This document shows positions 16,583-28,012 of a stretch of 39,044 nt of DNA, piece after piece. Where the stretch lies: positions 1 through 39,044 of the forward strand of contig RFKQ01000107.1 in assembly GCA_003694635.1 (NCBI GenBank). Reading direction: 5' to 3'. The DNA comes from Planctomycetota bacterium. Its GTDB lineage: Bacteria; Planctomycetota; J132. A model generated the notes under the pieces. That model made no database searches. It was given only the letters and a program-made list of their open reading frames with translations, and was not told the origin of the DNA. A program made the position numbers and the translations under genes. Each line of letters starts with the position of its first letter. The stretch's first letter is position 1.

Positions 16583-16610
16583 TTGACAGATAGGGTTTGT
16601 TTTATATAAT
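16583..16610 (+). promoter_or_regulatory. Near-consensus promoter of the S10 ribosomal operon
   Basis: A perfect TTGACA (16583-16588) and a perfect TATAAT (16605-16610) are 16 bases apart, in an A/T-rich context (an A/T run lies just upstream, resembling an UP element). It is the only good promoter before rpsJ and implies a leader of about 335 bases. Confidence 0.88.
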
Positions 16611-16616
16611 AACTCA

Positions 16617-16953
16617 CTTTAAAATTGGCGTTTTATGCGCTCTTTTTTTTGTAGCGAGAAAGGCGCGTGGCTTTTTTTATCTGAAAGAAGCGTAGCCAAG
16701 CGCGAATATATCTAAATTTCCGCTCCTCCATCTAAGGGATGGGTATAGGAAAACGCTCTGCGGAGGCTATATCTTGCAGAAGGGAGAGGTAGTTTCATTT
16801 GGCAAATTTGGATTTGTGGTGGGTGGGGAAAGTGGCGGTAAGAGAGGGAGGAGAATTTGGCTGAATGGCTTAGGGGGGAGGCGTGGGCAGGTGGAGGATT
16901 ATAAATCATTTTGACATGGTTTTTTTTAAGTTTGCAGGAGCATTGATGGGTAT
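16617..16953 (+). promoter_or_regulatory. S10 operon leader with a compound hairpin
   Basis: About 335 untranslated bases lie between the promoter and rpsJ. At 16720-16763 nested pairing is possible: CCGC with GCGG outside, TCCT with AGGA, and CCATC with GATGG around a 5-base loop. Two T-rich tracts (around 16645 and 16674) precede it. In other bacteria the S10 leader is the target of feedback by L4; whether this leader does the same is inference. No short protein gene is convincing here. Confidence 0.45.
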
Positions 16954-25140: not shown

Positions 25141-26070
25141 GTGTTTTCCAAGAGGTTTGTTGGTTGGATTTTGGTTTTGGGTGTGCTGTTGGTGCCTTTT
25201 CCCCTGTGGGCGCAGGGGGTGAGTGGCAAGGCAAAGTTAGGGTGTTTGTGGGGGTATATTGATGCCAAGGGGAAGATGGTGATTTCGCCCAAGTTTGAGT
25301 TTGCGAGCATTTTTTTTCAGGGGCGTGCGATGGTGAAGTGGAAGGGGCTTTGGGTGGTGATCAACAAGCAGGGTTTGGTGTTAGGAGGGGGGATTAAGTT
25401 TGGCAACATAGGTCTTTTTTCGGAGGGGTTGGCGGCGGTTCAGATCAATGGGAAGTGGGGGTTTATTGATATAAACGGCAAGATTGTGATCAAGCCTCAA
25501 TTTGATGCTGCGTTGCGGTTTGAGGGAGGGTTAGCGGCGGTTTATGTGAATGGGAAGTGGGGGTTTATCAACAAGCTGGGGATCATGGTGGTTCCGCCTA
25601 AGTTTAAGATGATCGGTATTCCGTCAGCGGGATTGATTCCGTTGATGGTGGAGGGGAAGTGGGGTTTTGCCAATCTTAAGGGGAAGTTGGTGATCCCGGC
25701 GAAGTTTGAGTTGGTGTTGCCGTTTATGAATGGGCTGGCAAGTGTTAAGATCAATGGCAAGTGGGGGGCGATCAACAAGTTTGGGATTATGGTGATTCCG
25801 CCTAAGTTTGAGAGCATTGGCCTGAATTTAGGCGTTGGTTTGATTCGGGTGAAGTTGAATGGGAAATGGGGGTTTATTGGTCCGGATGGGAAGTTTGTGA
25901 TCAAGCCGCAGTTTGAGGGGGTAGGTATTTTTGTTGGTGGATTGGCGAGTGTTAAGATCAATGGCAAGTGGGGGAAGATTGACATCACAGGTCAGATTAA
26001 GATTCCGCCGATTTATGCCGAGATTGGGCCTTTTGTCAATGGGATGATTGCGGTGAAGGTTTGCAAGTAA
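25141..26070 (+). CDS. Secreted WG-repeat protein inserted between rplX and rplE
   Basis: 309 residues from a GTG at 25141, chosen because GGAG lies 8 bases upstream; an ATG five bases earlier is out of frame. Residues 1-24 form a Sec signal peptide (FSKRFVGWILVLGVLL, cleavage near LWA-QG). The rest is eight WG repeats, each about 35-40 residues, with cores such as KWGFIDINGKIVIKPQF and KWGAINKFGIMVIPPKF. WG repeats form beta-propeller-like or solenoid structures, often with binding roles in envelope proteins. Location should be periplasm or surface. Codon use is the same G-rich style as its neighbours. Why an exported protein sits in the spc operon is not evident. Confidence 0.88.
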   Translation: MFSKRFVGWILVLGVLLVPFPLWAQGVSGKAKLGCLWGYIDAKGKMVISPKFEFASIFFQGRAMVKWKGLWVVINKQGLVLGGGIKFGNIGLFSEGLAAVQINGKWGFIDINGKIVIKPQFDAALRFEGGLAAVYVNGKWGFINKLGIMVVPPKFKMIGIPSAGLIPLMVEGKWGFANLKGKLVIPAKFELVLPFMNGLASVKINGKWGAINKFGIMVIPPKFESIGLNLGVGLIRVKLNGKWGFIGPDGKFVIKPQFEGVGIFVGGLASVKINGKWGKIDITGQIKIPPIYAEIGPFVNGMIAVKVCK

Positions 26071-26749: not shown

Positions 26750-26935
26750 TTGGCCAAAAAGTCTTGGATTGCAAAGCAGCGGCGCGAGCCAAAGTTTTCC
26801 ACGCGAAGGTACAATCGTTGTCAGCTTTGTGGACGTTCTCGTGGTTATTATAGGAAGTTTAAGATTTGCCGTATTTGTTTCCGGCAACTTGCCTCTCAGG
26901 GGTGCATCCCAGGGGTTCGCAAGGCGAGTTGGTAA
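26750..26935 (+). CDS. rpsN: Ribosomal protein S14, zinc-binding (type Z)
   Basis: 61 residues, the short zinc form. Cys pairs CQLC and CRIC flank [10 protein letters not shown]. It starts at TTG ([10 protein letters not shown]), with AAGGAG 8 bases upstream and no nearby ATG in frame. S14 completes the 30S head. It is the last gene before the 650-base gap that carries a second promoter and hairpin array. Confidence 0.95.
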
Positions 26936-26976: not shown

Positions 26977-27004
26977 TTGACAAAATAAAAAATTTCGCTA
27001 TAGT
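26977..27004 (+). promoter_or_regulatory. Strong internal promoter after rpsN
   Basis: A perfect TTGACA (26977-26982) and TATAGT (26999-27004) are 16 bases apart, in A/T-rich DNA. It is as good as the S10 operon promoter. The expected start is near 27011, just before the hairpin array. Confidence 0.8.
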
Positions 27005-27011
27005 TATATTT

Positions 27012-27490
27012 TTTAAGAATTAAGATTAAGGCGCTGGTCGGATTTGGCCAAAAGGCGCCAGAAGTGGCAAATCATCTAACAATTCCCATTTGCTATTCAT
27101 CTGGCCAGAGTGCCCCAACTGGCTATTTTTCCTAGGTTTTAAGGAAAAGATAGGAAGAGAGAGTGCCAGCGAAGAGGAGGGCGAAAGTGGCCGTAGATTC
27201 TTTGCTGGTAAAGAATTTGAGTTTTTCTCTTACTTTCCGGATGGATAGCCCTTCAAATCAAGTTTGGAAAGCCGGCTGGACGTAGTTGTACGTTTTCAGT
27301 GAGCTGGTTATCCCAATTAGCAGTGTAGACGTCATTTTTCTAGGAAGCTCTAGAAAAGGCGCGTTTTCTATTTTCGGTTTTCCATCGCTTTTCTGTTGTG
27401 CCTTCTAGCGCGTTGGGGTGGCTTTGGAGTACCGAAGCTTTGTTGGGCTTTCTTTCTAGTTGCTAGAGTGGCAAATTTGGGGTCTAATTT
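27012..27490 (+). ncRNA. Candidate large structured RNA between rpsN and rpsH (no known family recognised)
   Basis: No protein gene fits these roughly 480 bases, yet successive hairpins fill them. Stems: 27030-27034/27055-27059 enclosing 27035-27039/27046-27050; 27064-27072/27088-27096; 27102-27108/27119-27125; 27127-27133/27142-27148; 27164-27173/27201-27210 (10 bp); 27243-27250/27306-27313 enclosing 27280-27284/27289-27293; 27336-27343/27350-27357; 27358-27362/27398-27402; 27405-27410/27461-27466 enclosing 27421-27427/27432-27438. Many stems contain a G-T wobble where a G-C or A-T pair would do. C content is higher than in the G-skewed genes around it, as pairing requires. It has its own promoter and no clear terminator, so it may be a very long rpsH leader or a processed RNA. 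I found no tmRNA, RNase P, SRP or intron core motifs. Confidence 0.6.
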
Positions 27491-27589
27491 TTGTTTTGTT
27501 CTGTATAGATGTAGAGGTATTGTTGGTATTTTATTTTCATGGAGGATGGGGTTTGTCCGATTGGGCAGACTCTAGCGGTAGATAGAGTT

Positions 27590-28012
27590 ATGTGTATGAC
27601 AGATCCGATTGCAGATATGTTGACACGGATTCGCAACGCCAACGCCATTGGACGCAAGAAAGTGGACGTACCTTTTTCTAAGATTAAGAAGGGGATTTTG
27701 GAGGTTCTCAAACGGGAGGGGTTTATTGAGAAGTTTGAGGAGGTGGAGGGGAGGGTGAGCCGGAGGCGTCGCAAGAAGCGGGGAAAGGTGTTGCGTGTGT
27801 TTTTAAAGTATGGGGAGAATGGAGAGTTTGTTATCAATCAGATTCGGCGAGAGAGCAAGTGTGGGAGGCGGGTATATCGTTCTGTGAAGGAGATTAAGAA
27901 AGTGCTCAATGGGTATGGAATCGGGATTTATTCTACGCCGAAGGGGATTTTAAGCGATAGGGAGTGTCGCTTACAGAAGGTGGGTGGGGAGTATTTGTGT
28001 AGTGTATTCTAA
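27590..28012 (+). CDS. rpsH: Ribosomal protein S8
   Basis: 140 residues from the ATG at 27590, which gives the family start MCMTDPIADMLTRIRNA; ATG 27596 is equally possible, and an in-frame ATG at 27539 would add 17 non-family residues. The rest is typical (VDVPFSKIKKGILEVLKREG, GYGIGIYSTPKGILSD). A basic insert SRRRRKKRGK lies mid-protein. S8 is a primary 16S binder and, in E. coli, represses the spc operon. No strong Shine-Dalgarno is seen, which is unusual here. Confidence 0.95.
   Translation: MCMTDPIADMLTRIRNANAIGRKKVDVPFSKIKKGILEVLKREGFIEKFEEVEGRVSRRRRKKRGKVLRVFLKYGENGEFVINQIRRESKCGRRVYRSVKEIKKVLNGYGIGIYSTPKGILSDRECRLQKVGGEYLCSVF

Follow-up and report, generated by a model that had tools for sequence, protein, structure and literature searches.

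The contig carries the S10-spc-alpha ribosomal-protein cluster, whose gene order is among the most conserved in bacteria. In the window, which is the whole stretch of 39,044 nucleotides that was analysed, gene order was assigned from position and length, and rplE, rpsN, rpsH, and rplF were identified by Pfam. The upstream half of the cluster ends with rpsN, which encodes a zinc-type S14 (26750-26935, plus strand; Ribosomal_S14, E 1.3e-24). The next ribosomal-protein gene is rpsH, which encodes S8 (27596-28012, plus strand; Ribosomal_S8, E 1.3e-43); its start was set at 27596, with a second in-frame ATG at 27590. The two genes are 660 bases apart. The original prediction had described a separation of about 650 bases as unusual for bacteria, and the comparison bears this out. 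Among 139 other planctomycetes (the phylum genomes with rpsN and rpsH on one contig) the median distance between the two genes is 30 bases and the longest is 147; about 100 further loci that were measured, in Planctomycetota, Bacilli, and other groups, reach at most 249. A second insertion within the spc operon that holds this gap lies between rplX and rplE, where a WG-repeat protein gene occupies 25141-26070 (WG_beta_rep, E 6.4e-77). The source assembly is incomplete (2.52 Mb in 158 contigs, 66.8% complete), and its closest relatives among the genomes compared share the phylum level only. Among named genomes, the contig's S8 finds its best matches mostly in Planctomycetota MAGs, which points to Planctomycetota as the phylum, and a search restricted to the class returns the source genome alone.

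No protein gene was found in the gap, in agreement with the original prediction. The short frames tested match no Pfam family beyond one chance match (E 0.23), and none of the six frames shows the codon usage of the genome's long genes, in a weak test in which rpsN itself scores slightly below zero. A tblastn search of the gap with the organism's own proteins returned the rpsH extension, as expected, and otherwise only matches at chance level. From the Pfam and tblastn results, a protein remnant was rejected. Moreover, no repeats were found inside the gap, its sequence is single copy in the genome, and it does not match the genome's palindromic repeat family. Phage and plasmid searches with the gap sequence gave no real match, and viral contigs searched with one exact 25-base stretch of it gave none. 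An interspersed repeat or mobile element was rejected on these grounds. The palindromic repeat family itself (AAAGTTTTTGGAGGTNCGGAACCTTTTTTTGAAAAAGGTTCCGAG...) occupies many intergenic gaps of this genome, for example L163:2997-3299, L174:8286-8572, and dozens more; in the sampled 835 kb, a single gap can have up to about 130 blastn matches.

A sigma-70 promoter, TTGACA-N16-TATAGT, is found at 26977-27004 on the plus strand. It agrees with the consensus at 11 of 12 positions, confirming the near-consensus promoter first noticed there, and is the best within 14 kb, where all other sites score 9/12 or less. The background sample comprised 835 kb of the source genome, taken as stretches, and contains 51 promoter sites with a score of 11 or 12. 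Five of these directly precede tRNA-like sequence, including two tRNA genes confirmed by Rfam. Since 42 of the 51 sites are intergenic, compared with an intergenic share of about 14% of the sample, and since some stand directly before tRNAs, TTGACA-N16-TATAGT is very probably the organism's working vegetative promoter type. From the usual spacing to the -10 hexamer, transcription would start near 27012. These near-perfect TTGACA-N16/17-TATAAT sites, mostly intergenic and often immediately upstream of tRNAs, allow the vegetative promoter of a deep lineage to be read from sequence. The S10 operon has a perfect promoter of this kind (TTGACA-N16-TATAAT, region 16583-16953), followed by a leader of about 337 nt that carries a small hairpin and, directly past the start, a T8 tract; the fold of this leader is no more stable than that of its shuffles (z +0.35).

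Downstream of the 26977-27004 promoter lies a candidate structured core at 27012-27490 on the plus strand, with a sense z of about -4 and an antisense z of about -1.5. The predicted folding energy of 27017-27490 is -164.6 kcal/mol, compared with -141.4 +/- 5.6 in dinucleotide shuffles (z -4.1, with none of 200 as low); on the minus strand z is -1.5, and 16 of 200 shuffles match it. The same test gave z -4.2 for the genome's RNase P RNA (antisense -1.9) and -6.3 for its tmRNA (antisense -3.5). Within the core, 27327-27437 reaches z -4.4, with 0 of 500 shuffles as low. The candidate region has the lowest z among 161 contig windows of 480 nt and also among 26 strong-promoter leaders in the 835 kb, where the next lowest is -2.8. 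The proposal of a structured RNA is thus supported by a fold signal that is confined to the sense strand and matches RNase P RNA from this genome in strength. Against the genome background the signal is less extreme, because intergenic windows have a mean z of -1.15 (sd 1.76), and a number of them lie at -3 or below. The most extreme intergenic windows inspected were RNase P RNA, tmRNA, the palindromic repeat family, or A+T-rich palindromes, which does not account for all of the extremes.

The fold model predicts eight or nine hairpins, counting one before rpsH, so the initial count of at least ten was overstated. Five of them are robust, with p of about 0.9 or higher and no dependence on the flanks: 27164-27210, 27270-27309, 27335-27358, 27372-27437, and 27548-27573, all on the plus strand. 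The pairing of TGCCAGCGAA with TTTGCTGGTA singled out in the original prediction is firmly predicted (27164-27176/27198-27210, p 0.98-1.0) and gives the first of these hairpins its 13-bp stem, TGCCAGCGAAGAG/TTCTTTGCTGGTA. The second is the robust inner part of a long interrupted hairpin at 27261-27318, AGCCGGCU-GGACGUA/UACGUUU-AGCUGGUU, whose inner stems have p 0.84-1.0. It is followed by a hairpin at 27327-27366 with a 10-bp stem, UUUUUCUAGG/UCUAGAAAAG (inner stem p 0.93-1.0), and by a further long interrupted hairpin at 27372-27437, with 25 bp in five segments (p 0.86-0.99). An 11-bp hairpin, GGGGUUUGUCC-GAUU-GGGCAGACUCU, is predicted at 27548-27573 (p 0.91-0.98), 22 nt upstream of the rpsH start, and the rpsH start region is itself largely or partly paired in the model. 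In the 5' part (27030-27148, plus strand) several pairings of CTGG/CCAG-like stretches compete, and the fold varies with context. The other stem named at the outset, TGGCCAG with CTGGCTA (27102-27108/27119-27125), belongs here: it forms with p 0.70 in one context and is replaced in a longer one, as one of several competing pairings of the 5' third. The unpaired positions of the candidate RNA are not A-rich in the fold model. In transcripts reading through from upstream, a 13-bp helix could form between the A-rich promoter stretch 26979-26991 and the U-rich 27488-27500 (p 0.88, with one pair at 0.40 when the context is longer), so that read-through and promoter-born transcripts might fold differently.

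Folding below the shuffled level also occurs in other intergenic stretches of this genome, so the fold could be incidental. The gap would then be an unselected spacer, produced by insertion or expansion in one lineage, with an internal promoter driving its transcription and that of rpsH and the genes after it. This possibility is strengthened by the WG-repeat gene, as another insertion in the same operon, and by occurrence in a single genome: single-sequence covariance models of the 3' and 5' domains, which reach fairly close relatives only, found only the source window in 392 planctomycete genomes. Against a spacer stand the fold signal, which is specific to the sense strand and the lowest of 26 promoter leaders, and the failure to find a repeat or gene remnant in the gap. 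An unselected origin is less likely than a leader but has a fair probability.

A separate question is whether the core ends as an RNA of its own. The plus-strand U-rich stretch at 27486-27503 follows the core without a canonical terminator hairpin ahead of it, only a weak G-U-rich stem, and a terminator scan gave no terminator-like site there or anywhere between the core and rpsH. A possible long-range pairing could close the fold ahead of the U-rich stretch; such closing pairings shift with context. A free, stable non-coding RNA of about 480 nt, starting at 27012, ending near 27490-27503, and acting in trans, would suit the tRNA-type promoter, the fold signal equal to that of RNase P RNA, and the U-rich stretch behind its possible closing pairing. 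The position directly before rpsH suggests action in cis instead, and the lack of a clear terminator makes a free RNA less likely; we regard it as improbable. The separate RNA of about 480 nt first proposed thus has no recognisable terminator at its end, and the better fit is the alternative offered with it, an oversized leader for the genes in the downstream half of the spc operon. With no terminator-like site before rpsH, the roughly 580 nt are read as a 5' leader.

At gathering score, Rfam yields only a tRNA over the whole window, and with E values up to 10 and permissive filters the candidate region gives only two meaningless weak matches. In particular, the region does not match the covariance models for OLE, GOLLD, ROOL, HEARO, or other Rfam families. 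The genome encodes full copies of RNase P RNA (314 bits, contig C22) and tmRNA (194 bits, contig C145) elsewhere, and with neither RF00010 nor RF00023 matching the region, both identities were rejected. The stated absence of any tmRNA, RNase P, SRP RNA, or intron signature is in line with these searches. A divergent form of a known RNA (RNase P RNA, tmRNA, 6S, SRP RNA, an intron, or OLE/GOLLD/ROOL/HEARO) is thus highly improbable, even though the candidate's size and fold density are within the range of such RNAs. Like the large ornate RNAs OLE, GOLLD, and ROOL, the candidate is non-coding and has hundreds of nucleotides and many helices; unlike them, it comes without a sequence or covariance-model match, homologues, or multimer or partner evidence. 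The resemblance to ornate RNAs that had been suggested found no positive evidence. A new class of large structured RNA, limited to a single deep lineage of planctomycetes, transcribed from a promoter of its own within the spc operon and either free or controlling S8-SecY without rRNA mimicry, appears unlikely.

Control of the S10-spc-alpha cluster is known chiefly from E. coli, where it acts via S8, and the known ribosomal-protein leaders are far shorter than about 580 nt. In E. coli, the spc mRNA mimics the core of 16S helix 21 to which S8 binds (PMC4176348). To compare helix 21 directly, 16S rRNA was sought in the source genome, but the assembly yielded none; the S8 motif was therefore drawn from the literature. 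The descriptor comprised the helix-21-like internal loop, the A595-A596-U644 and G597-C643-U641 triples, and A642 (PMC4176348). This core is absent from 27012-27595, whereas the same descriptor recovers helix 21 from a control excerpt of E. coli 16S written from general knowledge. The candidate shares with the E. coli S8 site a structured RNA in the spc operon ahead of ribosomal-protein genes, with autogenous control as the expected function. The E. coli site, however, is one short hairpin at the rplE start, whereas the candidate spans about 580 nt before rpsH, lacks a helix-21-like S8 core, and has an internal promoter. No published spc or rpsH leader of comparable kind was found in literature searches. 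Another structured RNA next to a ribosomal-protein gene is the L17 downstream element, which is backed by comparative alignment and located in what may be a 3' UTR (PMC2864571). The candidate is similar in its narrow distribution, in adjoining a ribosomal-protein gene, in a strand set by G-U pairs, and in that no rRNA similarity was noticed (PMC2864571). In contrast to that element, it lies 5' of rpsH and behind a promoter, without a known homologue. It directly precedes rpsH and follows the promoter, which would put it in the 5' UTR of a ribosomal-protein transcript.

The reading preferred here, to which we give a probability of roughly 45%, is that of an oversized, structured 5' leader, specific to this lineage and probably regulatory, for a second spc transcript that would run from rpsH past secY. 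It draws on a gap of 660 bases against at most 147 in the 139 phylum genomes, on a promoter of the type used by the genome's tRNAs, and on a sense-only fold signal that equals RNase P RNA and is the lowest of 161 windows and 26 leaders. It also draws on the absence of a gene, Rfam family, repeat, or second copy, on the lack of a terminator-like site before rpsH, and on a start region that the model leaves largely paired, with a stable hairpin just upstream. From these computed results, we infer transcription from the 26977-27004 promoter, continuation into rpsH, and regulation. The leader interpretation is weakened by the lack of a homologue in the 392 phylum genomes, in a class represented by the source genome alone, and by the missing S8-binding motif. 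The length, the unpaired positions that are not rich in A, and the low intergenic background z count against it as well.

If this leader is real, the strong internal sigma-70 promoter would start a second spc transcript and thereby split the cluster in two, with one transcript from the S10 promoter (16583) and another that starts at 27012 and continues through rpsH and past secY. The first 580 nt or so of the latter, from 27012 to about 27590, would form a highly structured untranslated leader ahead of rpsH-rplF-rplR-rpsE-rplO-secY. The product of a downstream gene, another ribosomal protein, or some other ligand may bind the folded leader, and the 27548-27573 hairpin together with the paired rpsH start region could then serve as the control point for translation or read-through. 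It would be a variant of the ribosomal-protein leader that exceeds the usual length by far and lacks the established S8 motif. For now, the case consists of a single candidate in a single incomplete genome. RNA regulation in planctomycetes is little described, and a leader of about 580 nt that divides the spc operon would, if true, represent a new way of setting S8-SecY levels. It would also mean that deep lineages known from single genomes can hide RNAs that are invisible to covariation screens.
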